This document shows positions 2 to 18,941 of a stretch of DNA of 29,428 nucleotides, one piece after another (within the stretch, counting starts at the first letter, position 1; the number at the start of each line of letters is the position of its first letter). The position numbers and the translations under genes are program-made. Location: positions 51,372 through 80,799 of the IMG/VR virus record IMGVR_UViG_3300030085_003864. One strand, written 5' to 3'. The notes under the pieces are model-generated. The model was not told the DNA's origin. It was given only the letters and a program-made list of their open reading frames with translations, and did no database searches. Source of the DNA: a virus.

Positions 2-295
2 AAAATGGATGAGGGTTGTCATTACAGAACACATTTAGACCAATGGGTTAGTAATATTGGTTGTATATATTATATTAATCAATCGTGGATGTGGGATTGG
101 GGAGGAATATTTCATTTAGATACGGCCTCAGAAGAAACTGATGATAGTGATTCTGTTGTTCCGATTTTTCCAAAATTCAATCGTGCGTTAATTATGAACA
201 ACACACTTGAAAAATTTAAATTTCCACATTTTATAAGTCATGTGGCAGATTACGCTAAGTATCCAAGATACACATTAATTACATTTGGGAGATAA
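2..295 (+). CDS. 2OG-Fe(II) oxygenase, C-terminal part (5' end outside window)
   Basis: The frame is open to the left edge, so only the C-terminal part is present; the ATG at 5 is probably internal. Counting from that Met, the fragment shows the order expected of a prolyl-4-hydroxylase-type double-stranded beta-helix: an HxD iron-binding motif (H10, D12), a Tyr-Ile-Asn-Gln strand, a Trp-Asp-Trp-Gly-Gly turn, the 'PKFNR' strand, a distal His (H79, in ISHV) and a basic residue that would bind 2-oxoglutarate (R88, in PRYTL). Such enzymes hydroxylate a protein, sugar or small molecule; the substrate is unknown. It lies immediately upstream of sugar-nucleotide genes, so a role in glycan or surface modification is inferred. 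The family call is from motifs only. Confidence 0.7.
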   Translation, partial: KMDEGCHYRTHLDQWVSNIGCIYYINQSWMWDWGGIFHLDTASEETDDSDSVVPIFPKFNRALIMNNTLEKFKFPHFISHVADYAKYPRYTLITFGR

Positions 296-297
296 AA

Positions 298-1272
298 ATG
301 TTTAAAGATAAAAATGTTTTAGTAACGGGTGGAACTGGAATGATAGGTAGAGAATTAGTACAACTACTATTAGATAGGGGAGCAAAAATAAGAGTAGCTT
401 CTCTCGATGAACCAGTTGATTTTTTTGAAGAAGTAGAATTTCACAAAGTAGACTTGACGATATATGAGAATTGTGAAAAAATATGTGAAGGTATGGATTA
501 TGTGTTTCATGTTGCTGGTATAAAGGCGTCTGCAGAAATGCCTAAAATAAAACCCTTAAATTATTTTATTCCATTGGTAAAATTCAATATCAATATGATG
601 GAGGCCGCATTTAAATCAGGAGTAAATTGGTATTTATACACAAGTTCATATGGAGTTTACACACCATCAGAAATATCACATGAAGATGATATGTGGAAAA
701 CCTTTCCCTCAGACAATGATAAGTTACCTGGTTGGGCAAAACGAATGGGTGAATTACAGGCAGAAGGTTACAAAATACAATATGATTGGGACAACATATC
801 TATTGTAAGACCTGCTAATGTTTATGGTAAGTGGGATAACTTTGAATTAGAAACTGCGATGGTAATTCCATCCTTGATTAGAAAGGCAGAAGAAGCTGGT
901 AAAGGTGGTACGATGAGTGTTTGGGGAGATGGAACACCAATTAGAGATTTTATTCATTCTAAAGATGTGGCAAGAGGAATGATTTTTGCAGTTGAAAACA
1001 AGATAACCGAACCATTAAATCTTGGAAGTGGTGTTGGTGTTAACATAGGAGAACTTGCAACAAGTATTGCAGATAAATTTGGATGTGAGGTAGAGTTTGA
1101 TTCATCCAAACCAAATGGAGACCATAAAAGAATATTGGATATGTCAAGGGCATATAATTATGGATATGAGAATTCTGTGTCGGTTAAGGACGGAATTGAC
1201 GATACTATTGATTGGTATTTAGAAAACAAAAATAATAAATTGGATTTTAGACATAATCCATTTGAGGATTGA
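298..1272 (+). CDS. GDP-L-fucose synthase-like NAD(P)-dependent epimerase/dehydratase (extended SDR)
   Basis: Residues 6-17 carry the Rossmann dinucleotide motif TGGTGMIG (G11, G14, G17). A TSS strand lies at 115-117, and the C-terminal half follows GDP-L-fucose synthase: 'RPANVYG' then 'WDNFE' at 171-183, 'VIPSLIRK' at 189-196, and 'VWGDGTPIRDFIH' at 208-220. Length, 324 residues, is normal. The active site is altered: where SDR enzymes have YxxxK, this protein has P144-G-W-A-K148, so the catalytic Tyr is replaced by Pro, and the fucose-synthase His before VIPxL is Met188. It may have changed chemistry, act as a partner subunit, or bind rather than turn over sugar nucleotide. A GGGAGA Shine-Dalgarno at 287-292 supports the ATG. 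A second homologue follows at 2980. Confidence 0.85.
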   Translation: MFKDKNVLVTGGTGMIGRELVQLLLDRGAKIRVASLDEPVDFFEEVEFHKVDLTIYENCEKICEGMDYVFHVAGIKASAEMPKIKPLNYFIPLVKFNINMMEAAFKSGVNWYLYTSSYGVYTPSEISHEDDMWKTFPSDNDKLPGWAKRMGELQAEGYKIQYDWDNISIVRPANVYGKWDNFELETAMVIPSLIRKAEEAGKGGTMSVWGDGTPIRDFIHSKDVARGMIFAVENKITEPLNLGSGVGVNIGELATSIADKFGCEVEFDSSKPNGDHKRILDMSRAYNYGYENSVSVKDGIDDTIDWYLENKNNKLDFRHNPFED

Positions 1273-1273
1273 T

Positions 1274-2254
1274 ATGGGATATTTAAAAGTAACGAATAAA
1301 TTTTGGCAAAGTGATATCTGTACTGGTTTTGGAAATCGTATTCCACATTGGGCACTGGCGTATAAAATAGCCGAACACCATGATTTTAAATTCACTATTT
1401 TACTCGACTCGTTTTATTGGCCAGAAACCACTTATGTTGATTTTCCACACACCGAATCTACTTTTTTAGATGATAATCTACACGGAGAGTTTATAGAACT
1501 AACAATGGATGAGAGTATATTGGATTTAGACACATCTAAAAATTATTATTTAAATGGTGATCGTATAGAAAATGTAGAAGCATCAGAACCAAGTACAGTA
1601 GAGAAAACTGGAATTTTTTATTTACCTCCAGTTTACACATTATTAAAATTAAAGAGTTCTTATTTAGAGTCTTTAATAAAAGATAAAGTAAAAAATGCCA
1701 TAGGTGTTCATGTGAGAAAAAATAATGTTACTCCTGTTAGTATGGATGTCGGTGATATCTACGAAAGAAATACTGATTTGTATAAGGCATATAAAGAGGT
1801 AGACTATCTTAGTGATTTTAATGAATTGATACGGATATACAAAAGTCACGATACTAAAAATCTTGAAAGATTTACTGATAACCAATTACTTTATATAAGT
1901 AGTGATATATCAACAACATACAGAGATTTAAAGGATATGAATGAACAAGAACTTTTTTCTTTGTTTCCTAATTATAGTGATTTTTTTGTTACAAAAGAAA
2001 TATATCAAGAATATAATTGTATAGATTATAGTGATATAATTCCAAATTATGATTGGAAATTTCCAATAGGAGCTCTTAATGATAGGGGTTTATTAAAAAG
2101 TGGTGGACATTCTAATTTAGTTTATTTTAAAAAAGTATTGAGGGATGTTGTTGATTTGTTTAGTTTAGTGTATTGTAAAGATTTTATACCAGCATTATCC
2201 ACTTGGTCTGTTTTTGTGGATCAATATAGAATGGAAATTCAAAATGGAGAATAA
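1274..2254 (+). CDS. Putative fucosyltransferase-like glycosyltransferase
   Basis: The ATG at 1274 is preferred to an in-frame TTG at 1262 because GAGG at 1264-1267 lies 6 nt before it; this gives 326 residues. Near the N-terminus, TGFGNRI (residues 17-23) resembles the GLGN(R/Q) donor-binding loop of GT11/NodZ/O-fucosyltransferase families. GVHVRKN (144-150) resembles their HxRR motif, and a later 'LLYISSD' segment resembles the (A/S)TDD strand. A 'GGHSNLVYF' and 'STWSVF' C-terminus fits the acceptor-side loop of the same fold. These residues are seen directly; assignment to a GDP-fucose-using transferase is inferred from them and from the flanking fucose-synthase-like genes. Other GT-B transferases remain possible. 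Confidence 0.55.
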   Translation: MGYLKVTNKFWQSDICTGFGNRIPHWALAYKIAEHHDFKFTILLDSFYWPETTYVDFPHTESTFLDDNLHGEFIELTMDESILDLDTSKNYYLNGDRIENVEASEPSTVEKTGIFYLPPVYTLLKLKSSYLESLIKDKVKNAIGVHVRKNNVTPVSMDVGDIYERNTDLYKAYKEVDYLSDFNELIRIYKSHDTKNLERFTDNQLLYISSDISTTYRDLKDMNEQELFSLFPNYSDFFVTKEIYQEYNCIDYSDIIPNYDWKFPIGALNDRGLLKSGGHSNLVYFKKVLRDVVDLFSLVYCKDFIPALSTWSVFVDQYRMEIQNGE

Positions 2255-2990
2255 AGCACCCTTACACTATGTTGGTAATCCTAAAGGTTTGGGATTAACT
2301 TTTTATGAAAAAGTAGCTTCGACTTCACTTACGAGATTTTTCAGGCCACATATTTTTGAAGATAGTAAATGGACAAAAATGATGGTTGTTATGCGTAATG
2401 AACAAGACAGATGGGTTTCAGGATTCATACAGGATTTAAAGTTGAAGTCATCTGGAAATCCATCACCTTATCGTAATTTTAAAGATTTTTCAAAAGGAGA
2501 TGTTTTGACTTGGGATTTAGATAGACAGAGATACTTTTTAGATGTTTTATCAAAAGAAGGTAGTCCATACTATACACCCAATTTGTTCGGTCAAAATGGT
2601 GGTCACAATCATTTAGGTGATACAGATTGGCAACCACATATTATAAATTTAATTAGAAATAAAAATGTGTGGTTTTGTGAACTTGAAGATTTATCTGATT
2701 GGGATTTTTGGGATTTTTGTAGTTATACAGATAATAGTTATACCAATAAGTGGAATCGTGATAATTGGATAGAACATAATAACGAAAAAGATAACACGAA
2801 TACGGCAACTGATTATAGTAATTCTGTTAGTAATTTTAAAAAATTAGTTGTACATTATTTAGAGAGAAATTATGATGACAATTTTGGATTTATTCATAAA
2901 ATGTTAATGAAAAATCAGGCTACAATAAAATGGATAATAGATTCAGAAAGATATTATAAAAACTATATTGGAGATAACAATGTTTTTTAA
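2244..2990 (+). CDS. Putative PAPS-dependent sulfotransferase-like protein
   Basis: The ATG at 2244 (248 residues) overlaps the upstream gene by 11 nt; a TTG at 2214 would lengthen the overlap and is not favoured. Residues 22-28 read EKVASTS, close to the 5'-phosphosulfate-binding loop (PKxGSTS) of sulfotransferases. Residues 48-60 read VVMRNEQDRWVSG, matching the 3'-phosphate-binding pattern (hhRxPxxRxxSxY) with R51, R56 and S59. The rest is Asn/Asp/Trp-rich and not diagnostic. If correct, it would move sulfate from PAPS to a glycan hydroxyl, matching its place between sugar-nucleotide and transferase genes. No PAPS-making gene is visible, so donor would come from the host. Confidence 0.5.
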   Translation: MENKAPLHYVGNPKGLGLTFYEKVASTSLTRFFRPHIFEDSKWTKMMVVMRNEQDRWVSGFIQDLKLKSSGNPSPYRNFKDFSKGDVLTWDLDRQRYFLDVLSKEGSPYYTPNLFGQNGGHNHLGDTDWQPHIINLIRNKNVWFCELEDLSDWDFWDFCSYTDNSYTNKWNRDNWIEHNNEKDNTNTATDYSNSVSNFKKLVVHYLERNYDDNFGFIHKMLMKNQATIKWIIDSERYYKNYIGDNNVF

Positions 2991-3927
2991 AAATAAAAAA
3001 GTAGTAGTAACAGGTGGTAGTGGGATGATTGGAACACACTACATAAAAGAACTTTTAAATCGTGGTGCTAAAGTTAGAACACATACACATAATAGACCTT
3101 TAAATGTTGTAGATGATAGGATAGAGGTTTTAGAAAATCTTGATTTAGAAAAGTTTGATGATTGTATGAAACTCGTAGATGGTTCAGATTATATAGTTCA
3201 TTCTGCAGGTAAAATATGTCATCCATCCGATGTACCAACTGATTTTAAAATAGCAAAAAGTCAAATATCTCTTGTATCTAATCTTTTAGAGTCGGGTAAT
3301 AAATGTGGTGTAAAGGGATTTTTAGACATAAATAGTTCTACTGGTTATCCTGATAGAAGATATCCGATTACAGAAGATGAATATTGGGATGATGAACCAT
3401 ATATTTCATACTACGGATATGGGTGGTCAAGAAGATATAGAGAAAAGATTATGGAACATTGTTCTCATTTTTCTGATATGAAAATTTCAATCGCTCGTGG
3501 AACTGCAATGTTTGGTCCTTATGATAATTTCGACACAAAGACTTGTCATGTAATACCTGCACTTATTCACAGAGTTTTAAAAGATGAAAATCCGTTTGTG
3601 GTTTGGGGAAGTCCTGATGTGGTTAGAGATTTTCTTTATGTTAAGGATGTGGTTAAAGGTGCATTACTAATATTAGAAAAGGGGGAATCTATGAGACCAT
3701 ACAATCTTGGTTATGGTTCAACCGTAACTATCGGTGATATTGTCGATACGATATTAAAAGTTACAGGTAAAACTCCAAAGGTAGAATGGGATAATTCAAA
3801 ACCAACCACCATTCCGTACAGAATGGTCAGTACTGATAGGATAACAACAGAACTTGGATTTCAGCCTGATTACTCCTTTGAAGAAGGTATAAAAGAAACA
3901 ATTGAGTGGTATAAAAATAATGAATAA
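2980..3927 (+). CDS. GDP-L-fucose synthase-like epimerase/reductase (second copy)
   Basis: ATG at 2980 follows GGAGA at 2970-2974 and gives 315 residues; the 11 nt overlap with the upstream gene suggests translational coupling. TGGSGMIG (11-18) is the nucleotide-binding motif. 'FGPYDNF' (178-184), 'CHVIPALIHRV' (189-199) and 'VVWGSPDVVRDFLYVKD' (207-223) follow the GDP-L-fucose synthase (WcaG/Fcl) pattern closely, including its catalytic-region His (H190) and a Ser pair near 119-120. The catalytic Tyr-Lys motif reads Y147-G-W-S-R151, with Arg replacing Lys. The enzyme would epimerise and reduce a GDP-4-keto-6-deoxy sugar. No GDP-mannose 4,6-dehydratase is in the window. Compared with the copy at 298, this one keeps Tyr and His. 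Confidence 0.85.
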   Translation: MFFKNKKVVVTGGSGMIGTHYIKELLNRGAKVRTHTHNRPLNVVDDRIEVLENLDLEKFDDCMKLVDGSDYIVHSAGKICHPSDVPTDFKIAKSQISLVSNLLESGNKCGVKGFLDINSSTGYPDRRYPITEDEYWDDEPYISYYGYGWSRRYREKIMEHCSHFSDMKISIARGTAMFGPYDNFDTKTCHVIPALIHRVLKDENPFVVWGSPDVVRDFLYVKDVVKGALLILEKGESMRPYNLGYGSTVTIGDIVDTILKVTGKTPKVEWDNSKPTTIPYRMVSTDRITTELGFQPDYSFEEGIKETIEWYKNNE

Positions 3928-5233
3928 ATTAATTTTTGGATTTGACCAATTTAAAGAAGATGGTGATCCTTTACCAAATCTTGAAAACTTTGAGTTTGAT
4001 AATAAAAAAATATGTAATTGTGGAAATGTATTTTTAGGAATGTTACAAGACATTAAATTTGATTATCAAGAAACAGCAACAAGACAATGGGAAGATTTGA
4101 GTATGGAAACTTTACCAATTGAGAGTATAAAAAATAATTACATTTATCATGTTGATGTTAATTGTTTTGCTTGGGCATTTGGATACCACAGATGGCCAGA
4201 TAAATTTGATGATGTAAGTATTTTAGATTCTATTTCTACTGAAGTTATAAAAGATATTCAAAATGGTAAGTGTAAATTATTAGTTAATTATGGGTATGAA
4301 GGATTGGGTTCACATCATAGAGATAGCTTGTCTTGTATACCATTACTTGAAAGGATACATTTAATTTTAGAAAAATATAATATTCCACAAGAGAGTTTTA
4401 TTTACATGGATAGTAATCATGCATATGAAAATATTGATTTAAATACTAAAATTAATATTATACAATATGAATATTGTGCGTTAGACCAATGGAGATTTAC
4501 AAAACAAAATCCATTAATGATGTATCACGGAAATAATAAATCATCAAGAAATATGAAAAAGTGGTTAAATTCTAAAAATAAAATAAGAAAAAAATATTAT
4601 CTTTCATTTAATAGATTACCTAAAGACCATAGAGTTAAATTGATTGTAAGTTTAAATAAACATGATTTATTAGAAAAGGGATATGTTTCTTTTGCAAACA
4701 AAATTACTGATTGGGATTGGAGAGACATGGTTAGTGAAGAAGAAAAAACATCACTCGAAAATAAAATGCCATTGGTTATTGATAATCCTGATTTAAGTTT
4801 ATGTAAACATTCTTACGATGTTTTTGATATCAAATACTTTTTAGATAGTTATTTTCAGATAGTTACTGGTAATAACTTTACTGATTGGGATGATCAATTA
4901 ATTTTTAGTGAAAAAATTTGGAAACCTATAACTAATTTACAACCATTTATTTATTTAGATGATGTGGGTGCACTAAAGAAATTACAAGAATACGGATTTA
5001 AAACTTTTGAACCATTTATCGATGAGAGTTATGATGGAATTTATGATACTGAAAAAAGATTTAGTATGGTAGAAAATGAAATTATTAAATTATGTAATAA
5101 ACCAATCGAAGAAATACACGAATGGTATTGGTCAATAGAAGATATTATAAAACATAATTATTATCATTTTTACGAAAAATTTATACCTGACATGAAATCA
5201 AAAATGATTAACCAACTTGAGGAATTGCTGTGA
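3920..5233 (+). CDS. Putative glycosyltransferase-like protein (ESYD family, member 1)
   Basis: ATG at 3920 (437 residues) overlaps the preceding gene by 8 nt. I do not recognise an exact family. The central part has a 'YYLSFNRLPKDHR' segment and the C-terminal part has 'FSEKIWKPI', 'PFIYLDD', and 'GFKTFEPFIDESYD', followed by a helical tail. A Ser-Glu-Lys before a hydrophobic Pro-Phe-Ile strand is reminiscent of the donor-binding 'TEK' region of GT10-type and other GT-B transferases. The same order (NR-like strand, PFI strand, GF(K)(T/S)F, DESYD) recurs in the proteins at 5230 and 7197, so the three form a family. Sugar transfer is inferred from motif and context; no structure or activity can be claimed. 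Confidence 0.5.
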   Translation: MNKLIFGFDQFKEDGDPLPNLENFEFDNKKICNCGNVFLGMLQDIKFDYQETATRQWEDLSMETLPIESIKNNYIYHVDVNCFAWAFGYHRWPDKFDDVSILDSISTEVIKDIQNGKCKLLVNYGYEGLGSHHRDSLSCIPLLERIHLILEKYNIPQESFIYMDSNHAYENIDLNTKINIIQYEYCALDQWRFTKQNPLMMYHGNNKSSRNMKKWLNSKNKIRKKYYLSFNRLPKDHRVKLIVSLNKHDLLEKGYVSFANKITDWDWRDMVSEEEKTSLENKMPLVIDNPDLSLCKHSYDVFDIKYFLDSYFQIVTGNNFTDWDDQLIFSEKIWKPITNLQPFIYLDDVGALKKLQEYGFKTFEPFIDESYDGIYDTEKRFSMVENEIIKLCNKPIEEIHEWYWSIEDIIKHNYYHFYEKFIPDMKSKMINQLEELL

Positions 5234-6519
5234 GTTGGGGTGATTGGGATACTAAAGAAAATTCACCAACCGTTGGAAAGATGGTATTGGAATCGACTGA
5301 TTTTTCTCAATATAAATGTACGCTCAGTTGTTGGAATGATGATGGAAACTTCGGTTTTGTAAATAATTCTACTGATGAAAACTACAAATATCATTTGTGG
5401 TTTATTCCATCGGATACAATATTTCAAAATATGGACAATGAATCTTTTTTAAAAGAATATATAGAACACACATTTCCACATCCTGAAATTACACATAATG
5501 ATGATAGGTTATGGATAGTTATCGACAGACGAATGGAAAGTTTAAGTAAAGAATCTGCAGTAGACTTAAAAAGTAAAATTAAAAAACTTGGATATAATAC
5601 AGACAGAATTAAATTTTTTTGTAATTCATTTTATGAAAATCAAAACTTACTTGTGAATTTTCCATTTGAATTTTATTTGAGGTCATTAAGATTTAAATTA
5701 TCTGATGAAAAATTTGGTGAATTAGTGGATAGGGATATTGCGATTAATCATGAATATAAAGGTGAACCAAAAGGTTACAAAAATTGGTTACTTAACTTAG
5801 ACAACACAGAACCAAGACCTTACACTTTTCTATCATACGCAGGAAGTTTACCACCACACAAGTTATTATTGTTGTCGGAGTTATATAGAAAAAAATTAGA
5901 TAAATATTGTTTAATATCGGCATTAAATAGAGATGATGAATACCCATCATCCTTACGAGAAAAGGTAAGAGAATTTAATCCAAGAGGATTAGATAGTCTT
6001 AATGAAAGTGAAATTTTAGGTAGATTACCAATTTATCTTGATGTAAATAGAAACCTTTCTAAAAGTGAAACGGTTGGGTACGAGGTGTCTTTACCTAATG
6101 GTGAGGGTTCATCAGAAATTGGAGATTCCCAACCAAAAAAAGTTCATTACAATCAGACTTATTTTTATCTTGCAAATGAAACATCATATGATTGTGCAAG
6201 AATTACATCTCACATTAAATCTGCTATTTTACATCCGATGATTTTTAATGCAGGAGCAGGTACTTTAAAATTATTTAAATCTTGGGGATTCAAAAGTTTT
6301 CCAAATGTTTTTGATGAATCCTACGATGATATAAAAGATGATATGAAACGACATGATTTTGTAGTGAGAGAAATAGAAAGAATTTGTTTATTAAGTGAAG
6401 AAGATAAACACAAATTATATTTGGAATCCATACCAACAATAAAATATAATCAAAATATATTTATGAATTTTGATATAAAAGGATTGATTTCTAATATGTT
6501 TAGTCAAATAGTGAGTTAA
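5230..6519 (+). CDS. Putative glycosyltransferase-like protein (ESYD family, member 2)
   Basis: The GTG start at 5230 overlaps the previous stop as GTGA, with GAGGA at 5219-5223 spaced 6 nt upstream. The 429-residue product is a clear paralogue of the one at 7197. They share an N-terminal 'YHLW' segment, a 'LW(I/V)VIDR' strand, 'LSDE.F', 'INHEYKG.PK', 'NLDN.EPRPYTFL' and a nearly identical end with 'GFKSFPNVFDESYD' and 'EIERICLLSEE'. The SEK motif of the 3920 protein is missing here; an 'Ile-Leu-His-Pro-Met-Ile' strand takes its place. A glycosyltransferase role is inferred only from family resemblance and context. Confidence 0.5.
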   Translation: MSWGDWDTKENSPTVGKMVLESTDFSQYKCTLSCWNDDGNFGFVNNSTDENYKYHLWFIPSDTIFQNMDNESFLKEYIEHTFPHPEITHNDDRLWIVIDRRMESLSKESAVDLKSKIKKLGYNTDRIKFFCNSFYENQNLLVNFPFEFYLRSLRFKLSDEKFGELVDRDIAINHEYKGEPKGYKNWLLNLDNTEPRPYTFLSYAGSLPPHKLLLLSELYRKKLDKYCLISALNRDDEYPSSLREKVREFNPRGLDSLNESEILGRLPIYLDVNRNLSKSETVGYEVSLPNGEGSSEIGDSQPKKVHYNQTYFYLANETSYDCARITSHIKSAILHPMIFNAGAGTLKLFKSWGFKSFPNVFDESYDDIKDDMKRHDFVVREIERICLLSEEDKHKLYLESIPTIKYNQNIFMNFDIKGLISNMFSQIVS

Positions 6520-6520
6520 T

Positions 6521-7204
6521 ATGAAAAACAAAAAAATATTAATTACAGGAACTAATGGTTCACTCGGAGCCTTTTTAGTTAATAAGTATGAAAATCCAAT
6601 TTGTATTACAAGAGAAAATCCTATTACAGACGATATTATATCAAATGGAGTGGATACGATAATACATTGTGCATTTAATTCTAAGTTAGAAGAATTACAA
6701 AAAGTATCCAAAAGTTGTTTTGAGGATAATGTTGATTTGACTTATTCGTTGGTCAAAGTACCACACAAAAGATTTATTTATATTTCAAGTATTCAAGTTG
6801 CACCACATTCATTAACACCTTATGCCATATTTAAAAAAATAGCCGAAGATATTGTACAAGATAATTGTGAAAATCATCTAATACTACGAGTGTCTTGTTT
6901 TCTACCACAACCAAAAAAACAAAGTTCATTTTTTAAAATTGTTAATGGAGAAAATATAACACTAACGGAAGATTCAGTTAATGATGTTATATATTGTGAA
7001 AACATATACGATTCCATAGAATCAAATTTAAGTGGTGTTAAGTATTTAGTATCGAGAAAAACCATTACAACAAAAGAAACAGCAGAACTATTCAATAGTG
7101 ATACTAAGTTTGGAAGTTATCATTATGATGTCGGTGAGATAAAAAGTGATATAGATGTAGGAAAAACAAGTAAAGAAATTTTAAAGGAATTTTTTAATGG
7201 ATAA
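6521..7204 (+). CDS. Short SDR-family NAD(P)-dependent sugar reductase/epimerase
   Basis: The 227-residue product starts one base after the upstream stop. It has a Rossmann motif GTNGSLG (10-16), an 'IIHCAFN' strand where extended SDRs place 'VIHLAA', a Ser pair at 89-90 and an intact catalytic motif Y101-A-I-F-K105. It therefore keeps the residues that the two larger epimerases in this cluster have lost. At about 70% of normal extended-SDR length, it has a reduced substrate-binding domain, closer to dTDP-4-keto-rhamnose reductase-type proteins. It is likely a 4-keto-sugar reductase for the product of neighbouring enzymes, but the substrate is unknown. It sits between two paralogous transferase-like genes, overlapping the next one by 8 nt. 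Confidence 0.75.
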   Translation: MKNKKILITGTNGSLGAFLVNKYENPICITRENPITDDIISNGVDTIIHCAFNSKLEELQKVSKSCFEDNVDLTYSLVKVPHKRFIYISSIQVAPHSLTPYAIFKKIAEDIVQDNCENHLILRVSCFLPQPKKQSSFFKIVNGENITLTEDSVNDVIYCENIYDSIESNLSGVKYLVSRKTITTKETAELFNSDTKFGSYHYDVGEIKSDIDVGKTSKEILKEFFNG

Positions 7205-8492
7205 GGAATTTTCAGATTTTATATTTCGTCAAAATAAATTTCTTGATTATGATAAATTTAAAGATTTTAATGTAAGTTTACACGGAAATTTTGAAGATCC
7301 TGATTGGAGTTCTAATCATATGTATAGTGAGTATGATACTTCTCGTAGTAAATATCATTTGTGGGTGGTACAATCTAATGATATTTTCTTGGCAATGTTT
7401 GAACAGAACATAGCATATTTAAAAAAACATATAATTGATGTATTTCCACCAAAAGAAGAAACTTGGAATAATAAATCTTTATGGGTAGTTATAGATAGAA
7501 AAACAGAGAGTTTAAATTATAAATCTGTAATTCCATTATTAGACTTATTAATGGAAATGGGATACAACACCAAACAAGTAAAATTTTTATGTAGTTCACA
7601 TGAAAAAGAAAAAATACTTGTTGGTTTTACATTAGAATTATATGCAAGAGCACAATATTTTAAACTATCTGATGAAGAATTTTCTTTAATATATAAAGAA
7701 AAGGATATGGCAATCAATCATGAATACAAGGGGAAACCTAAAGATTATAAAGAATGGTTGTTAAACTTAGACAACATAGAACCAAGACCTTATACTTTTT
7801 TAAATTACAATGGAACTTTACCAGGTCACAAATTAAAGTTATTATCAGAAATTCACAATAGAAATTTAGAAAAGTATTTTTTATTATCGGCAACAAATAG
7901 GGATGGTGATAGTATAGAGTCTATTAAAGAAAAACTACTTTATCCATTTGAAAGTGAAACCGAAGAAATCCCAATAGATTTAACAGATAATTCAAAACTA
8001 TTAGAAAAATTACCTATATATCTCGATATAACAAGTGATATGGATAGTCGTTTATGTTCATTTAAACACGGAGTTTATCGTTCTGAAATAGGAAATTCCA
8101 ATCCTAAAAAAATTCATTATGATAAAACCTACTTTAGTGTTATTAGTGAAACTTCTTTTAATTCTAAAAGAGTAGTCGGTGATCCTTGGAAGTGTATGAT
8201 ACTACATCCGTTTATACTAAATGCAGGTGCGTATAGTTTAGAGTTGTTTAAATCGTTTGGATTTAAAAGTTTTCCAAATGTATTTGATGAATCTTATGAT
8301 AAGATTGAAAATCCAATAGAACGAAGTAAATTTATTATAAATGAAATAGAAAGAATTTGTTTATTGAGTGAGGAAGAAAAGCATCAGTTGTATTTAGATT
8401 CTATTCCGATACTAAAATACAACCAAAACCATTTGTGTAATTTTGATTTAAATAATTTTTTACTTGAGGTTTTTAATGAAGTTGTTAGTTAG
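7197..8492 (+). CDS. Putative glycosyltransferase-like protein (ESYD family, member 3)
   Basis: This 431-residue protein is the close paralogue of the one at 5230: shared 'KYHLW', 'LWVVIDR', 'AINHEYKG', 'NLDNIEPRPYTFL', 'LPGHKLKLLSE' and C-terminal 'GFKSFPNVFDESYD' blocks at matching positions. Differences concentrate in the first 60 residues and around residues 235-265, where an acceptor-binding loop could lie. The ATG at 7197 overlaps the SDR gene by 8 nt. A tandem duplication split by the short SDR gene explains the arrangement. Function is inferred as glycan assembly; the fold and donor are not demonstrable from sequence alone. Confidence 0.5.
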   Translation: MDKEFSDFIFRQNKFLDYDKFKDFNVSLHGNFEDPDWSSNHMYSEYDTSRSKYHLWVVQSNDIFLAMFEQNIAYLKKHIIDVFPPKEETWNNKSLWVVIDRKTESLNYKSVIPLLDLLMEMGYNTKQVKFLCSSHEKEKILVGFTLELYARAQYFKLSDEEFSLIYKEKDMAINHEYKGKPKDYKEWLLNLDNIEPRPYTFLNYNGTLPGHKLKLLSEIHNRNLEKYFLLSATNRDGDSIESIKEKLLYPFESETEEIPIDLTDNSKLLEKLPIYLDITSDMDSRLCSFKHGVYRSEIGNSNPKKIHYDKTYFSVISETSFNSKRVVGDPWKCMILHPFILNAGAYSLELFKSFGFKSFPNVFDESYDKIENPIERSKFIINEIERICLLSEEEKHQLYLDSIPILKYNQNHLCNFDLNNFLLEVFNEVVS

Positions 8493-10523: not shown

Positions 10524-11312
10524 GTGAAAGATATTATAAAGATACCTTCCAAGTGGAATCGTATTTTTAGAAAAGAGGTTATACGATTATTATCAGAAAG
10601 AGATGTTGTAGATGAGAAGTTTTTTGATTTAGAAAATTTACACAAAACGGTTGATATGAAACTATTTGATTATGTTGTTAGAGAAAAAGAAAATGAATTA
10701 CAACATATGCTTTATGAAACGGATATCAAATTCATATCTACATACCATCGATTTTTAAGTGAATTACATGATTATTTAAAGTTTGATTTTTATTTTCAAT
10801 CAACACCAACGATAAGATTTCATGCACCAAATTCTAAAAATGAATTTAAATTTCCTGAATTCCATTCGGATATACAATATGGTCATCCACCACAAGAAAA
10901 TAATGTTTGGATATCTTTAACTAAAAATAAACATTCTAATTTTCATGTTATAGATAAAGAAAAAAGTATTTCTTGGTTAAAAGAATATGATTCAGATTGG
11001 AATGTTTTTTCTAAAGTTGCATATGAAACGAGAGATATAAATTCTGATTTTAATAAAAAAGGATTAAAATTATCAAATGAGATACCATCAACACTTGATA
11101 ATGTTTTTATGTTTGAATCATTTTGTATTCATGCAGGTACACCACGAACTGAGGAAACAAGAGTTTCAATGGATGTAAGAATTAATCCAGTAGATAAATT
11201 TGTTGATGGTTATATGGGATTTGGTGTGGTTAAACCACAATTTAAACCAGGTGGAAGATTTGGTTACTATGAAAAATCAATTGGAGAGTTATGTGAAAAC
11301 GGTAGAATTTGA
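10524..11312 (+). CDS. 2OG-Fe(II) oxygenase (StrG/phytanoyl-type) 1
   Basis: GTG directly follows the upstream TAG and has a strong GGGAGG at 10513-10518 spaced 5 nt. The 262-residue product has an HxD facial-triad motif (H114-S-D116), followed by 'GHPPQENNVWISLT', and a distal 'CIHAGTP' His (H203) with Arg residues at 213 and 219 in 'ETRVSMDVR'. This arrangement matches StrG/phytanoyl-CoA-type oxygenases, which hydroxylate sugars, peptides or small metabolites with Fe(II) and 2-oxoglutarate. The neighbouring gene encodes a second member, and a radical SAM enzyme precedes it, so the three probably act on one product. The substrate is unknown. Confidence 0.75.
   Translation: MKDIIKIPSKWNRIFRKEVIRLLSERDVVDEKFFDLENLHKTVDMKLFDYVVREKENELQHMLYETDIKFISTYHRFLSELHDYLKFDFYFQSTPTIRFHAPNSKNEFKFPEFHSDIQYGHPPQENNVWISLTKNKHSNFHVIDKEKSISWLKEYDSDWNVFSKVAYETRDINSDFNKKGLKLSNEIPSTLDNVFMFESFCIHAGTPRTEETRVSMDVRINPVDKFVDGYMGFGVVKPQFKPGGRFGYYEKSIGELCENGRI
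11283..11288 (+). promoter_or_regulatory. Ribosome binding site deciding a GTG start
   Basis: GGAGAG lies 4 nt before GTG at 11293 inside the end of the previous oxygenase gene. It argues against the upstream in-frame ATG at 11200, which would overlap that gene by more than 110 nt and add a segment unlike the family. Confidence 0.6.
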
Positions 11313-11952
11313 TACAAAAAAATACACATTTAAAAATTTAGTTTCTGATGTATTTCATATAGAAAAATTAGAAAAGATACATGAGCTACGAAAAGATTTG
11401 TTGCCAACTGAATCTCTCAATCTATATACTGAAAGTTCTACAAAATTTCATGATACATTTTATACAAGGTTAAATGACAATTGGACAGAATTTTATGAAA
11501 TGTATGATGGTTTTATTCATAATGAAGTAACCAAGTTATTTGATGAACCATTTCATTACCAAAAATGGCCTACATTTAGGGTTCATATTCCAAATGACCA
11601 GGCAATACATACTTGGCATTCAGATGGTGATCCTCTACATAAACATCCACCAGGTGAAATTAATTTTTTTCTACCATTAACAAAATGTTATGGAACTAAT
11701 ACCGTATGGGTAGAAAGTGAACCTATGAAATTAGATTTTAAACCAATTGAATTAGAGTATGGACAATACTATATGTTTAATGGTAACAAATGTATGCATG
11801 GAAATAAACCCAACAAAACAACTTTGACAAGAGTTAGTTTTGATTTTAGAGTAATTCCAATATCAAAGTACAATCCAAATTGGGATATTAATTCACCAAC
11901 ATCCAATACAAAGTTTGTAGTTGGACAATATTATACAAATCTCAAAGACTAA
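11293..11952 (+). CDS. 2OG-Fe(II) oxygenase (StrG/phytanoyl-type) 2
   Basis: I choose GTG at 11293 (219 residues). The product repeats the pattern of its neighbour: H109-S-D111 in 'TWHSDGDPLHKHPPGE', a 'NFFLPLT' strand, distal 'MHGNKPN' (H169) and 'TRVSFDFRVIP' with R180 and R186. These give the complete iron- and 2OG-binding set. The protein is somewhat more typical of the family than the 10524 product, which has extra N-terminal and C-terminal sequence. Two tandem oxygenases with overlapping reading frames suggest two hydroxylations in one pathway or a heteromeric pair. This is the last gene before the candidate promoter at 11978. Confidence 0.78.
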   Translation: MKTVEFDTKKYTFKNLVSDVFHIEKLEKIHELRKDLLPTESLNLYTESSTKFHDTFYTRLNDNWTEFYEMYDGFIHNEVTKLFDEPFHYQKWPTFRVHIPNDQAIHTWHSDGDPLHKHPPGEINFFLPLTKCYGTNTVWVESEPMKLDFKPIELEYGQYYMFNGNKCMHGNKPNKTTLTRVSFDFRVIPISKYNPNWDINSPTSNTKFVVGQYYTNLKD

Positions 11953-12019: not shown

Positions 12020-12790
12020 ATGATAAAATTGATGGATTTGTTGAATGAAGGAGTTCGAGATCCAGGTATATTTAAGGCTATATTTTTGGCTGGAGGACCT
12101 GGTAGTGGTAAATCATATGTTGCACAACAACTATTTGGTATACCTGAAAAGATAAATGTATCTAAGTATGGACTAAAAATGGTCAATCAAGACCAAGAAT
12201 TAGAATTGTTTTTAAAAAAATACTTTGGAACTCTTGATATTGATAATATGCCTAAAGATTTGTTCAGACAACTTACAGATCCTGAATACGATGATTATAG
12301 TGGAATGAGAGGATATGCAAAAGAATTGAGTAAAGCTAGATTAGAAAAGTATTTAGAAGGTAGAATGGGAGTTATAATTGACGGAACAGGTCATAAATTT
12401 AAATCTGTTAAGAAGAAAAGAACTAAATTGATGAATTTAGGATATGATACATTTATGGTATTTATAACAACTTCATTAGAAGTTGCACAACAAAGAAACG
12501 AAACACGACCACGAAGATTACCTGCAGATATAGTTGAAGATAGTTGGAAAGATGTACAATCAAATTTGGCATACTTTCAAGGATTGTTTGGGGCAAGTAA
12601 CTTTTTAATTGTGGATAATAATAAACATTTAACTCCTGAACAGGCAAAGAAAAAGTTTAATATGTTAGTTGATAAAGGAGTTAAGAAATTCTTAAATAAA
12701 CCAATAAAAAATAGACAAGCAAAAAAGTGGATTGAGAAACAAAATCTTATTCCCAAAAAAGATTTAAAACAGATGTTGAGAGGAAGATAG
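12020..12790 (+). CDS. Capsid-targeted P-loop kinase (zeta-toxin/polynucleotide-kinase-like)
   Basis: GGAG at 12009-12012 is 7 nt from the ATG, giving 256 residues. The N-terminus reads MIKLMDLLNE and then G, matching a gp21-type cleavage signal (LxE) after residue 10. A Walker A motif GGPGSGKS occupies 25-32 after a hydrophobic strand. Later, 'VIIDGTGHKF' and an arginine-rich lid ('RNETRPRRLP') resemble the AAA_33/zeta/polynucleotide-kinase group, which phosphorylates nucleic acid ends, nucleotides or UDP-sugars. It is the first gene after the candidate promoter. I infer that it is packaged in the capsid and acts early in the host; whether it is RNA-directed or a toxin-like kinase is open. 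Confidence 0.75.
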   Translation: MIKLMDLLNEGVRDPGIFKAIFLAGGPGSGKSYVAQQLFGIPEKINVSKYGLKMVNQDQELELFLKKYFGTLDIDNMPKDLFRQLTDPEYDDYSGMRGYAKELSKARLEKYLEGRMGVIIDGTGHKFKSVKKKRTKLMNLGYDTFMVFITTSLEVAQQRNETRPRRLPADIVEDSWKDVQSNLAYFQGLFGASNFLIVDNNKHLTPEQAKKKFNMLVDKGVKKFLNKPIKNRQAKKWIEKQNLIPKKDLKQMLRGR

Positions 12791-14551: not shown

Positions 14552-16140
14552 TGATTTATCTTTCTAATTTAATTCCGTTGAATGAGTATTCTAAATTTAG
14601 GCTCAACATCCCCTCTGACATAAAGAATATACACAAACTTTTTAAGAAAAACAAGAAAAAACTTTTCGTAGTTGGTGGAGCAGTTAGGGATGCAATATTA
14701 GGAAAGAACCCAAAAGATTTTGATTTAGCCACCGATGCTAAACCTGACGAGGTATTAGCAATAGCAAAGAAAGGTGGATTGAAAACCGTAGAGGTTGGAA
14801 AACAATTCGGTGTCGTGATAGTGAACGGACATGAAATAGCAACATTCAGAAAGGATATTGGTAAAGGGAGACGCCCAAGTTCAGTTGATTATACCGACAT
14901 CGAAGGTGATGTTAAACGGAGAGATTTGACCATAAATGCGTTGTTCTATGATATGGATAGAGGTGAGATTGTAGACTTGGTTGGTGGAATAGCTGATTTG
15001 AAAAAGAAAAAAATCAGAACGGTTGGAAAACCTATCGAAAGATTTGATGAGGATCCGTTGAGAAAGATGAGAGCATTAAGATTTCAAGGTGCACTTGGTG
15101 GTAAGTTAGGAAAGGAAACAGAAAAGGCACTAAGACAAAATCCAAGTCTTAAAGGTGTGAGTAAGGAAAGAATCAGAGATGAATTTGTGAAATCAATTAG
15201 AAAGGCAAAATCAACTAAAAGGTATTTACAATTAGCTGATTCGTTGGGATTTACAAAACAGATATTACCTGGTTTTCAAGTTAAAGTTCCATACATAAAT
15301 GAAAACGATTATATTTTATTTTTAGCTTGGATTTTACGAAAAAATGATGTAAATTCAATAAGGAAATTGAATGGTTTAGCCTATCCTAATCAAGAAATAG
15401 TTGATATTCAGTTTTTGAATTCATTACAGAATTTTAAACCTGAGAATATTTTCTTGATTAAAAAGTTTCAAGAAAAGACCAATTTGAGTAAAGGTCAAAT
15501 TTTGAAATGGGGTAAATACATTGGAAAAGATTTTAAAAAATTAGTTAGGTTTAAACTATCAGTAAAAGGTAGTGATGTTCCAAGCGATTTAAAAGGAAAG
15601 GACATAGGTAAGGCAATACAAAATATGGAAAAAGATAAATTCTTAAATGAAATAGCAGTTCGGAAAAAACCGAAGAAATTCAAAGACATTTATAATGCAC
15701 TACCAAGTGATTTAAAGAAAAGAGTTTACAATCTTAAAAATTACGAACAAAGGAGAGACCATCATCCCGAAGGTAATGTGTTGAAACATACGATTGCCGT
15801 TACCAATAGGGCACTCAAAACAGGTGATATAGATTTTGCATTATCAGCACTATTTCATGATATCGGTAAAGATGAAACTGCAAAACTACATCCCAAGAAA
15901 GGTTTTTGGACACATTATGGGCATGAGAAAGTTTCTGCTAAACTTGTATTGAAGTATAAGAAGTGGATAAAATCAATGGGTGGTAATGTTGCTGATATTT
16001 ATTACATAGTAAAACAACACATGAGAATGAAGGTATTTGATAAGATGAAATGGACAAAACAAGATAAATTGAGTAAATTTAGAGCTTTTCCAAAACTCAA
16101 GAAGTTCTCACAAACTATGGATATAGGTGGAAGAAGATGA
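14551..16140 (+). CDS. Capsid-targeted tRNA CCA-adding enzyme / poly(A) polymerase with HD domain
   Basis: ATG at 14551 overlaps the upstream stop (TAATG), giving 529 residues. Residues 1-12 read MIYLSNLIPLNE and then Y, a tag variant ending in LNE. The class II polymerase-beta-type nucleotidyltransferase head is complete: GGAVRD at 42-47, DFDLAT with the metal-binding D56 and D58, RRDLTIN at 123-129 and 'EDPLRKMRALRF' at 167-178. A long helical middle leads to an HD phosphohydrolase domain with H413 and 'HDIGK' (H436, D437). Bacterial CCA-adding enzymes with HD domains also trim cyclic phosphates from tRNA ends. Finding it behind a capsid-targeting tag suggests virion delivery and an early role in tRNA or RNA 3'-end maintenance. 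Confidence 0.88.
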   Translation: MIYLSNLIPLNEYSKFRLNIPSDIKNIHKLFKKNKKKLFVVGGAVRDAILGKNPKDFDLATDAKPDEVLAIAKKGGLKTVEVGKQFGVVIVNGHEIATFRKDIGKGRRPSSVDYTDIEGDVKRRDLTINALFYDMDRGEIVDLVGGIADLKKKKIRTVGKPIERFDEDPLRKMRALRFQGALGGKLGKETEKALRQNPSLKGVSKERIRDEFVKSIRKAKSTKRYLQLADSLGFTKQILPGFQVKVPYINENDYILFLAWILRKNDVNSIRKLNGLAYPNQEIVDIQFLNSLQNFKPENIFLIKKFQEKTNLSKGQILKWGKYIGKDFKKLVRFKLSVKGSDVPSDLKGKDIGKAIQNMEKDKFLNEIAVRKKPKKFKDIYNALPSDLKKRVYNLKNYEQRRDHHPEGNVLKHTIAVTNRALKTGDIDFALSALFHDIGKDETAKLHPKKGFWTHYGHEKVSAKLVLKYKKWIKSMGGNVADIYYIVKQHMRMKVFDKMKWTKQDKLSKFRAFPKLKKFSQTMDIGGRR

Positions 16141-18941
16141 AGAACATCAACATAGATAAAGAAATGGAATTATTCCTTGAAGCGGCCTGTGGGGTTGGAC
16201 AGAATCCTGAAGATACAGGATGTGAACCTGCTGGTGCCTCAAAGGCAAAATCCAAACCAAAAGTTAAAATTCCAAAAATTAAAATGCCAAAATTTAAAGC
16301 TCCATCTTTCGCCGATATAGAAAAGGGAAGGAAGGAAAAGGAAAAAAAGAGAAACAGACCAGATAGAAAACCAAATGTGGTAGATGGTGTTGATGTGATT
16401 AGAGATAAAGAAGATGAACAACATTTTATGGATGACTTCCATTTAAAAGGAGATGGTGGTGTTGACATGGAAGAACATGATAAGAAGATGACAGAACAAT
16501 GGCAAGAACAACAAAAGAAAAGAACACCAAAAGAAAGAAAACAAATTAAAGAAGATATTGCAAGTTGGAAACAACTTGGTGGGTTTGAGGCTCAAGAACG
16601 GGCCGTAGAAGATGGAACTCATACGAGAGAAGAAATCCAAGAAAGAAACGAAAGAATTAGTGAAATTTCTCACACTACCATTACTAAGGTTGACAAACCA
16701 ATAGAAAGGGGAATATCAGTTCCGAATGATGTAGCAGAACAAATCTTAGCTGATTTCGAAGAAGGAGAGATGGCTGAGATACCTGATGAAAGTGGACATG
16801 GTTCAAGTGGATTTAGTACAAGTGCCGAAACTGCAAGAGGTTTTGCAGATGTCGATGATGATAATCCAGAACAAACATCAATAGTATTTAGAATAGAACC
16901 AAATTCAAATGGAGAAGTTAGAGGTGCCTTTATTGATGGTGAAGGAGAGGATTTTCAAGGTGAAGGAGAAATAACTCGTAGTTCTAAATCAAAGGCAAAG
17001 GTCAGAAAAGTAGAACGAGTTAGGTTACCAAATGGAAAGATGGTGGTTACGGTTATTCTAACAGAACCAGATGATTTATCAGAAGTAGTTGTGAGAGAAG
17101 AAAAGGGTAAAGTGGATATGATATCAAGAAAATACTTAGAAGGACCTATAAACCCAAAACCACAGAAGGTAAAGAAAAAGGTCAAAAAGGAAAGTAGTCT
17201 TGTAGCAGAACTTGTAAATCCAATTTTAAAGGAGCATAAGTTACCATTGATTAAGGAAGAAAAATCAAAAATTAAAAAGGTTGTTGGTATCTATGGTGGT
17301 AGATATCAACCATTTGGCCCACATCACTTAAAGACTTACAAGTGGTTAAAGTCAAAAGTAGATGATGCATACATCACCACATCAGACATTAAAAAACCAC
17401 CTAAACATCCTATGAATTATAGTGAAAAAGTTAGACATATGACCAAGATGGGTGTTCCTAAGAATCGTATTATCAAGGAAAAAGTTCCATTAGTAGCAAA
17501 TAATGTGCTAAAAAAATACGATTCCGAGACCACAGCCGTGATATATATATTTGGAGAAAAGGACGCGGGTAGATTAGCAGGTGGTAAAAAGAAAGGTGGT
17601 GGTTTATCATACTTTCAAGATTATAAAAAGAATAAAAATAATCTAAAGGGATATGAAGAACACGGATACTTTATGACTGCCCCACATCAATCAGTAAGAG
17701 TTGGTGGAAAAGAAGTTAGTGGAACGGTAATGAGAGAATTACTCGGTTCACCTAAGTTTTCCGATAAAGAAAGAAAAAAGTTATTCAAAGATGCCTTTGG
17801 TTATTTTAATCAAGGTATTTACAATATGATGACCAATAAGTTCAGAAAGTTATTTGAGATTAAAGAGAATTTAATTACAGAAAAATTAGTAGCCGCAAGG
17901 AACAAGGGACATTTAAAAAATGGTGGTAAAACTGCTTTAAGTACAAGTGGAATAATTTCTAAGTTTAAAGGTAGGGGTGATATATCAGATGCATTTAGTT
18001 TTGCTATGAAAGACTTAGAACGAGCCATAGGTTCACTTTCTGCAAAACAACGAGAAAAGATATTTAAAAATGGTAGGGCTTGGATGAATCTTGAGGTTAT
18101 GTGGCCTAAGTCAGCAAATGTGATAAACTATGACAAGGCCGAAATTGTATTTCACGGGGCAATAGAATATGATGATAATGGAAATGCTATAGGTGAGGTC
18201 AAAGATAGTGCAAGAATGTTGGCTGGTATGATTAAACAAGTCAACCAAAACATACAGAAACGATATAAGATTGGAAAACCAAACTTTTTAACCGTACCTA
18301 AATCTCAAAACTTTGAAAAAAGAAAAAAATATTTTGTAAATAAATTAAATAGATTACAAAAACAATATAATTTAAAAGATAACGATACATTGGCTATGTA
18401 TCACCAAAGGTATTGGGAAGAATATATATTTAACGCAGCAAAACAACACGGATTTACAATTCCAAAGACACCATTAAAGAATTTAACGAAAAGATGGGCA
18501 TTCTTTGACAAATCATATAAAATTCCAATGATTAAAAAAGATTTTAAGAATCATCCTGAATTTTTAGATTGGGTATTGACTACGGATAAAGTAGACCATT
18601 CTAAAATGGTGAAACAAAATATGAAACCATTTGAGGAATTGTTCTTTGAGGTTGGAGCAGAAATAATGACAAATGTAAGTGGTTGGTTAGCAGCCAATCC
18701 TGACTCCACGGTTCAGAGAGTGAAGAAACAATTAGATTCCGCAATTAAAAATGTTCGTGCTGGTGGAGATTTGAAAAAATTAAATACTTTAAAATTACAA
18801 TTAGACAAGTTAAATAAGATTGGTGGACTAAAAGCAATAGTTCCGAGTGAAGGAATAGTTTTTAAATATAATGGTAAGACCTACAAATTTACAGGAGCAT
18901 TCGCACCAATCAATCAAATAACAGGTCTTATGACATTCTAA
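16137..18941 (+). CDS. Capsid-targeted multidomain protein: ADP-ribosyltransferase + NMN-adenylyltransferase-like + ligase-like C-half
   Basis: The 934-residue product starts with an imperfect tag ending 'ELFLE' then A (residues 11-16), then a Lys-Pro-rich stretch (about 36-55). Domain 1 (about 185-335) shows the R-S-E ADP-ribosyltransferase pattern: R191-G, S227-T-S229 and E276-G-E278. Domain 2 (about 380-565) has 'GGRYQPFGPHH' (387-397) and 'SGTVMRELL' (528-536), as in NMN-adenylyltransferase/cytidylyltransferase-like folds, although the first His of HxGH is Gly394. Domain 3 (about 583-934) opens at 'EKLVAARNKG' and ends with EGIVFK (905-910) and 'TYKFTG' (915-920), like nucleic-acid ligase motifs IV and V, but lacks KxDG. 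IxE/LxE sites at 364-366, 372-374 and 580-582 lie in the linkers, so cleavage into separate domains by the prohead protease is possible. T4 Alt is a packaged ADP-ribosyltransferase and is a functional parallel. Confidence 0.75.
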   Translation: MKNINIDKEMELFLEAACGVGQNPEDTGCEPAGASKAKSKPKVKIPKIKMPKFKAPSFADIEKGRKEKEKKRNRPDRKPNVVDGVDVIRDKEDEQHFMDDFHLKGDGGVDMEEHDKKMTEQWQEQQKKRTPKERKQIKEDIASWKQLGGFEAQERAVEDGTHTREEIQERNERISEISHTTITKVDKPIERGISVPNDVAEQILADFEEGEMAEIPDESGHGSSGFSTSAETARGFADVDDDNPEQTSIVFRIEPNSNGEVRGAFIDGEGEDFQGEGEITRSSKSKAKVRKVERVRLPNGKMVVTVILTEPDDLSEVVVREEKGKVDMISRKYLEGPINPKPQKVKKKVKKESSLVAELVNPILKEHKLPLIKEEKSKIKKVVGIYGGRYQPFGPHHLKTYKWLKSKVDDAYITTSDIKKPPKHPMNYSEKVRHMTKMGVPKNRIIKEKVPLVANNVLKKYDSETTAVIYIFGEKDAGRLAGGKKKGGGLSYFQDYKKNKNNLKGYEEHGYFMTAPHQSVRVGGKEVSGTVMRELLGSPKFSDKERKKLFKDAFGYFNQGIYNMMTNKFRKLFEIKENLITEKLVAARNKGHLKNGGKTALSTSGIISKFKGRGDISDAFSFAMKDLERAIGSLSAKQREKIFKNGRAWMNLEVMWPKSANVINYDKAEIVFHGAIEYDDNGNAIGEVKDSARMLAGMIKQVNQNIQKRYKIGKPNFLTVPKSQNFEKRKKYFVNKLNRLQKQYNLKDNDTLAMYHQRYWEEYIFNAAKQHGFTIPKTPLKNLTKRWAFFDKSYKIPMIKKDFKNHPEFLDWVLTTDKVDHSKMVKQNMKPFEELFFEVGAEIMTNVSGWLAANPDSTVQRVKKQLDSAIKNVRAGGDLKKLNTLKLQLDKLNKIGGLKAIVPSEGIVFKYNGKTYKFTGAFAPINQITGLMTF

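Follow-up and report, generated by a model that had tools for sequence, protein, structure and literature searches.

The DNA described here is the last 29,428 bases (the window) of an 80,799-base virus record of IMG/VR, IMGVR_UViG_3300030085_003864 (contig G000:C1:51372-80799). Its first genes belong to a long glycan island that, in this T4-type phage, separates the fibre module from the head module and combines a nucleotide-sugar cassette of seven genes with many glycosyltransferases and decorating enzymes. The reading that we favor, and to which we give an even chance, is that of a phage glycan system whose sugar is probably a branched 3,6-dideoxy sugar. For the seven genes of the cassette taken together, this is the most economical reading. 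The first-pass annotation had described positions 298 to 6519 as an island for fucose-type synthesis, transfer and sulfation. The description as a phage deoxy-sugar glycan island holds in that nucleotide-sugar enzymes and transferases are found beside head genes, but the assignment of the sugar as fucose is not supported, and sulfation comes down to one gene with a sub-threshold match that is absent from relatives.

The cassette starts about 4 kb upstream of position 298, within the 51 kb preceding the window, in which open reading frames (ORFs) were also called. It encodes a GDP-sugar 4,6-dehydratase, an RmlC-type epimerase, the E1alpha and E1beta subunits of a thiamine diphosphate (ThDP) enzyme, a ColD-type 3-dehydratase and two extended short-chain dehydrogenases/reductases (SDRs), SDR1 (298..1272, plus strand) and SDR2 (2980..3927, plus strand). 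The first five of these genes lie at G000 47241-48272, 48254-48790, 48748-49374, 49359-49904 and 49873-51069, in this order. With SDR1 as bait, relatives were found in 166 viral loci, 80 of which were kept for analysis; some of these 80 contigs are near-copies of one another. Within 8 kb of SDR1, the ColD-type gene is present in 78 of the loci, E1alpha, E1beta and SDR2 in 77 each, the 4,6-dehydratase in 72 and the RmlC-type gene in 69. All seven genes occur together in 61 loci, and many of the remaining loci are cut by contig ends. Several gene orders exist (the commonest in 42 loci, another in 10, that of the window in 4), and the gene content of the stretch separating SDR1 from SDR2 in the window differs from relative to relative. 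Seven control stretches of phage DNA, from cyanophages, Mel-JY01 and immuto, contain at most three of the seven genes.

All four enzyme classes of the pathway leading to GDP-3,6-dideoxyheptose in Campylobacter jejuni HS:5 are linked in the cassette. In the bacterium, this sugar is made by a 4,6-dehydratase, a pyridoxal phosphate (PLP)-dependent C3-dehydratase, a C5 epimerase and a C4-reductase (PMC10440746). The best PDB match of the phage 4,6-dehydratase is the C. jejuni GDP-D-glycero-D-manno-heptose 4,6-dehydratase (7us5, E 2e-63), followed at a distance by GDP-mannose 4,6-dehydratase (GMD; 1db3, E 1.5e-26); the copy of the gene in locus L014 scores 376 bits against the heptose enzyme and 152 bits against GMD. 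The first-pass annotation had advised a search for a GDP-mannose dehydratase upstream, and a GDP-sugar 4,6-dehydratase is indeed there, although by similarity it is closer to the manno-heptose enzyme than to GMD. The ColD-type enzyme is closest to ColD itself (2gms, E 4e-49) and has a His in place of the PLP-binding Lys in all 78 sequences, as expected of a nucleotide-sugar 3-dehydratase, for which this substitution is the hallmark (PMC8987622). The epimerase matches PF00908 above the cutoff (E 1.8e-29).

The ThDP pair goes beyond the four HS:5 enzyme types, and its presence suggests an added two-carbon branch. E1alpha and E1beta match profiles of the E1 component of pyruvate dehydrogenase (PDH) and retain the ThDP motif GD...DNN. 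Two-subunit E1-type enzymes of the alpha-KADH2 group (AviB1/B2, Pau11/12, KbDH) place a two-carbon branch on keto sugars, or have been proposed to do so (PMC4753412, PMC12247030). The phage pair has the gene-level features of this group, namely E1alpha and E1beta subunits that carry the ThDP motif and whose genes are linked to those of a 4-keto sugar pathway. The alpha-KADH2 systems and YerE, of yersiniose synthesis, share with the cassette the 4-keto deoxy sugar route, the E1-type ThDP pair and the reductases; they are, however, bacterial antibiotic or lipopolysaccharide (LPS) pathways, and branching by the phage pair is suggested by this likeness only. Compared with the capsule pathway of C. 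jejuni HS:5/HS:11, with which it has the GDP-manno-heptose-type 4,6-dehydratase, the PLP C3-dehydratase, the RmlC-type C5 epimerase and the Fcl-like C4-reductase in common, the cassette is phage-borne and has two additions: 1) the E1-type ThDP pair; 2) a second SDR, which lacks the catalytic Tyr.

The two SDRs are the proteins that had been called GDP-fucose-synthase-like. The superfamily was correct, but the fucose-synthase label fails membership tests, because the scores are far below the cutoff and catalytic residues are missing. GDP-L-fucose synthase (NF047922) is the best NCBIfam model for both proteins, with 152.7 bits for SDR1 and 126.7 bits for SDR2 against a cutoff of 500, and the first PDB match of SDR1 is the E. 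coli GDP-fucose synthetase (E 7e-31). The E. coli enzyme, Fcl/WcaG, requires the Ser-Tyr-Lys set together with Cys109 and His179, and neither SDR has all of these residues. SDR1 was compared among 92 unique relatives, viral and cellular, including 69 distinct viral sequences. It resembles Fcl in fold family, length, NADP binding and the catalytic Ser, and both Ser and Lys are invariant (92/92), but the catalytic Tyr is replaced by Pro, Ala or Gly in all 92 relatives, the Cys109 site is mostly Val and never Cys, and the His179 site is always Met. In the SDR1 of the window, the conserved Ser and Lys are Ser116 and Lys148, and Pro144 takes the place of the Tyr. In SDR2 the His is kept (82/82) and the Cys is absent; in the subgroup of the window, the Cys site is Thr, the Tyr is present and the Lys has changed to Arg. 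Across the SDR2 family the canonical Tyr varies (Y/V/A), and a Tyr four residues before a GW motif is invariant in all 82 sequences, so that the catalytic Tyr has possibly shifted.

Two Fcl-like SDRs from C. jejuni, both heptose C4-reductases, provide parallels for these residues. DdahC uses Thr110 and His180, which are the residues of SDR2, and MlghC carries out its reduction without the Tyr, having Phe136 at that site (PMC7949155). SDR2 is thus probably a C4-reductase of the DdahC type, as judged by its residues. SDR1 shares the loss of the Tyr with MlghC, but has Pro, Ala or Gly where MlghC has Phe, and its best PDB E-value is with E. coli Fcl.

What the sequences show is the genes themselves, their linkage, the signatures of their families and the conservation of catalytic residues. 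By combining these observations, it is possible to describe a pathway, of which the substrate, the order of steps, the C2 branch and the acceptor are what we infer from the genes. A GDP-sugar, probably GDP-D-glycero-D-manno-heptose and less likely GDP-mannose, would first be converted to a 4-keto-6-deoxy sugar by the dehydratase. The ColD-type PLP enzyme would then remove the C3 hydroxyl, and the RmlC-type cupin would epimerize C5. The two-subunit ThDP enzyme might next attach a C2 unit at the C4 ketone, and SDR1 and SDR2 would perform the reductions, with SDR2 acting like a DdahC-type C4-reductase. The GT-B proteins and other transferases would finally link the product to a protein of the virion or to a glycan of the host surface, where a variable set of modifiers (sulfotransferase-like, 2-oxoglutarate (2OG) oxygenase and radical S-adenosylmethionine (SAM) proteins) might act on it. 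Tentatively, the proposal can be extended to uncultured phages at large, in which the mobile seven-enzyme cassette would make a C2-branched 3,6-dideoxy sugar, perhaps derived from heptose; the Tyr-less SDR would be the enzyme specific to the cassette, and virions or host glycans would be the destination. If this is true, a C2-branched 3,6-dideoxy sugar-nucleotide would be of a kind not described from viruses.

Several observations weigh against a branched, heptose-derived product. The E1 subunits on the contig of the window are short, 208 and 181 amino acids (aa). GDP-heptose and GDP-mannose as substrates are indistinguishable by sequence similarity. Neighbours of the cassette in other loci include heptose-kinase-like genes (rfaE domain I, 49 loci) and genes resembling heptose-phosphate nucleotidyltransferases (rfaE domain II, 26 loci), both with scores under the curated cutoffs; neither kind of gene was found on the incomplete 80.8-kb fragment with the rfaE-like models from the relatives, and gmhA, hddA and hddC were not recognized among its ORFs. 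HldE-type kinases normally supply ADP-heptose rather than GDP-heptose. Furthermore, the linkage is one-way, since most loci of ColD-type genes have no other cassette genes: in a reverse scan starting from ColD, 57 of 80 viral loci lacked the other six. ColD-type dehydratases are thus widespread among phages, with the cassette as one of the contexts in which they occur, and the notion that ColD implies the cassette was dropped on this test.

A serious alternative, though one that we regard as doubtful, is that the product is not branched. The cassette would then make GDP-3,6-dideoxyheptose or a colitose-type sugar, while the ThDP pair would act elsewhere, for example in a transketolase-like supply of sedoheptulose 7-phosphate, or in another branch of the pathway. 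The four enzyme types that are shared with C. jejuni HS:5 need no ThDP enzyme there, and the heptose-kinase-like neighbours mentioned above also speak for this reading. However, the score of E1alpha is 119 bits with PDH E1 alpha and only 14 with transketolase. The two E1 genes adjoin SDR1 in 77 of the 80 loci and track it closely, and an unbranched product leaves the second SDR without an explanation.

The synthesis of GDP-fucose, followed by fucosylation and sulfation of a glycan, is improbable. It draws on the Fcl model and the E. coli match of the SDRs, on the dehydratase upstream, on the GDP-fucose-type motifs of the protein at 1274, and on the precedent of cyanophage S-SCSM1, which holds GMD, Fcl and NodZ (PMC9602691). 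The low Fcl scores, the absence of the Fcl Tyr, Cys and His from SDR1 in all relatives and of the Cys and, in the subgroup of the window, the Lys from SDR2, and the closer similarity of the dehydratase to the heptose enzyme led to the rejection of fucose synthesis as the leading reading; the 3-dehydratase and the ThDP pair, moreover, are not needed for fucose. The least probable explanation is that the island does nothing for this phage and represents stuffer DNA or acquired genes in decay. This possibility has been raised for the clusters of P-SSM2, S-SM2 and S-SSM7 (PMC3037559) and would suit the rapid turnover of accessory genes between relatives, but the catalytic residues do not vary even among diverged relatives, the cassette is retained across several gene orders, and the 58 coupled ORFs on one strand show no visible decay except at two assembly-gap sites.

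The cassette stands in an island of a known kind. LPS clusters have long been known in T4-like cyanophages (PMC3037559), so the first-pass view that such a set close to head genes is unusual needs qualifying. P-SSM2, S-SSM7, S-SM2, S-SCSM1, S-SRM01 and ACG-2014f have large clusters with GMD/SDR, aminotransferase-like and glycosyltransferase genes, and some of them have NodZ or sulfotransferase genes. In the loci checked, however, these clusters have no more than three of the seven cassette genes, and SDR1 is at most about 33% identical among the phage records listed. The 'transketolase' loci of cyanophages S-SM2 and P-TIM68 were considered as possible known members of the cassette and rejected; their E1-like proteins are not accompanied by the combination of SDR1, ColD and RmlC. 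With SDR1 and E1alpha as queries, searches of the annotated phages did not retrieve the linked cassette, no paper describing it was found in the open-access literature, and searches for papers on virion glycosylation by phages and on heptose genes in phages yielded none. The linked cassette appears to be a new variant. Even the function of the cyanophage LPS-type clusters has been doubted. Here, seven enzymes remain associated in dozens of viral contigs, in several gene orders and with intact catalytic residues. Since the cassette is close to a biochemically solved bacterial pathway, its product can be tested directly with existing enzymes and substrates, which opens a way to ask about virion glycosylation by phages or remodelling of the host surface.

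SDR1 relatives also occur at 27 cellular loci, from bacteria and a few archaea. The partner genes are frequent there but follow a less regular pattern (SDR2 in 19, E1alpha in 16, ColD in 14, E1beta in 13 and the dehydratase in 10). In the SDR1 tree the viral sequences form one strongly supported clade, which includes three sequences from Thiothrix-type contigs. These single-cell or metagenome-assembled contigs (L039, L045 and L047) carry the phage-clade SDR1 beside E1alpha and E1beta, and L045 and L047 also carry a second SDR1 of the cellular type. Possibly, they are virus contigs in bins or reflect transfer from phage.

The six ORFs on which the earlier description was built are all present on the plus strand: 298-1272, 1274-2254, 2244-2990, 2980-3927, 3920-5233 and 5230-6519. 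Those at 1274, 2244, 2980 and 3920 start with ATG and that at 5230 with GTG. Their junctions of +1, -11, -11, -8 and -4 bp argue for translational coupling, as had been claimed. The long transferase-like proteins of the earlier description are borne out as members of a family with ten paralogues in this genome, including those at 3920..5233, 5230..6519 and 7197..8492 (all plus strand). The AlphaFold2 model of 3920 (pLDDT 79, pTM 0.83) retrieves GT-B enzymes in Foldseek, the best being BshA (3mbo, E 6e-4, probability 1.0), with global TM-scores of about 0.4-0.5 and three matches only at E <= 0.001. The three proteins are predicted GT-B-fold glycosyltransferases, 3920 from its model and the paralogues 5230 and 7197 from their alignment to it. 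The family members scanned are not covered by any model of Pfam, PHROG or NCBIfam, and searches of annotated phages gave no match for 7197 or 3920. Relatives occur in at least 570 viral loci, which suggests a large GT-B family of phages that has yet to be named.

Two accessory genes lie between SDR1 and SDR2. The product of 1274..2254 (plus strand), present in four close relatives, had been called fucosyltransferase-like. It carries the motifs GFGN...A and IGVHVR (GxGN...A and HxR), which are of the GDP-fucose type (GT11/GT23-like) and had no matches in shuffled sequences. Nothing significant was found for it in Pfam, PHROG, NCBIfam or PDB, and there was no profile match to GT11, GT23, GT65 or GT10; its AlphaFold2 model, from an alignment of five sequences, has a pLDDT of 30. 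As motifs alone are no proof, it is a putative GDP-fucose-type glycosyltransferase. The sulfotransferase-like protein at 2244..2990 (plus strand) reaches 16.5 bits with Sulfotransfer_1 (PF00685, E 0.006), under the cutoff of 22. Both motifs for binding 3'-phosphoadenosine 5'-phosphosulfate (PAPS), the 5'-PSB and the 3'-PB, are present at normal spacing (KVASTS...RNEQDRWVS), a pattern unique among 2333 proteins and not met in shuffled ones. PDB gave no match and a pattern scan no viral relative. The protein is a putative PAPS-dependent sulfotransferase, and its gene is probably a recent accessory one because it is absent from the close relatives L006, L007, L008 and L025.

The remaining island genes of the window are also on the plus strand. 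The C-terminal part of a 2OG-Fe(II) oxygenase, matching Pfam 2OG-FeII_Oxy_4 and Oxy_3 above the cutoff, occupies 2..295; its N-terminal part is upstream (G000 51056-51666), the gene being split by a run of 10 N in the contig. A short SDR-like protein of 227 aa (6521..7204; Pfam Epimerase E 1.5e-5, phrog_540 4e-11) precedes 7197. The B12-binding radical SAM protein at 8508..10523 matches Pfam Radical_SAM above the cutoff; its best match is the KedN5-type C-methyltransferase model NF033712 (E 3.5e-65), sub-threshold at 220 of 700 bits, and among annotated phages it has a single weak relative. L004, L005 and the window encode several B12-binding radical SAM proteins, and two of those scanned are closest to the KedN5 C-methyltransferase family. 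The protein at 10524..11312, conserved in L006, L007, L008 and L025, has no Pfam match and is putatively 2OG-Fe(II) oxygenase-like by its HxD...H pattern, as may be that of the last island gene, 11200..11952.

The segment 298-6519 is a small slice of the island, which is about ten times longer. The island extends over contig 4,382-63,323 (to window position 11,952), about 59 kb of the 80.8-kb contig, with 58 ORFs, all on the plus strand, and a median gap of -8 bases. Its GC content is 0.30, compared to 0.37 for the preceding fibre genes and 0.33 for the following head and packaging genes. Immediately after the fibre gene there is a TibC/Aah-type O-heptosyltransferase (L003:4382-5329; 241.6 bits, curated cutoff 200), and the same placement is seen in PP395634.1:7573-8424, which suggests heptosylation of a fibre protein. 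The island also encodes an NDP-sugar dehydrogenase above the cutoff, a GT92 protein, a DUF6071 protein, a GT7 and laminin-G-like fusion, carbamoyltransferase pieces, 2OG-Fe(II) oxygenases and several B12-type radical SAM proteins. The closest relatives of the terminase are those of Microcystis phage Mel-JY01 and Flavobacterium phages 'immuto'. Mel-JY01 has one gene with a TibC-like domain (3.7 kb, annotated FkbM) between its structural and head genes, and no comparable island was found in the stretches of Mel-JY01 or immuto that were examined.

Some further features of the contig may be mentioned. Three neighbouring GT7-like galactosyltransferases are fused to a laminin-G/concanavalin-like lectin domain (L003:12841-14322, 14665-16146 and 16360-17868; the Pfam match is that of the middle one). 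Two structural-looking proteins (L003:3219-4361 and 6489-8030) end in a Hint/intein-like domain (CLPGTLITMSD...VHNKG). Many proteins near the head genes share near-identical leaders that end in an (L/I)xE-like motif, such as MIKLKDLLTE, MIKLMDLLNE, MIKLRQLISE and MIKLKEIVSE, with N termini at window positions 12020, 12790, 13269, 14189, 14551, 19819, 20076 and 28294. These leaders resemble the T4 capsid-targeting sequences that are cleaved by the prohead protease. As their carriers include enzymes, namely an AAA/zeta-toxin-like kinase and a tRNA-nucleotidyltransferase/polyA-polymerase plus HD protein, such enzymes may be packaged in the capsid. Finally, a 934-aa protein with a sub-threshold cytidylyltransferase-like domain (window 16137-18941) precedes the terminase module, and the Mel-JY01 gene at the corresponding position is annotated as a cytidylyltransferase.

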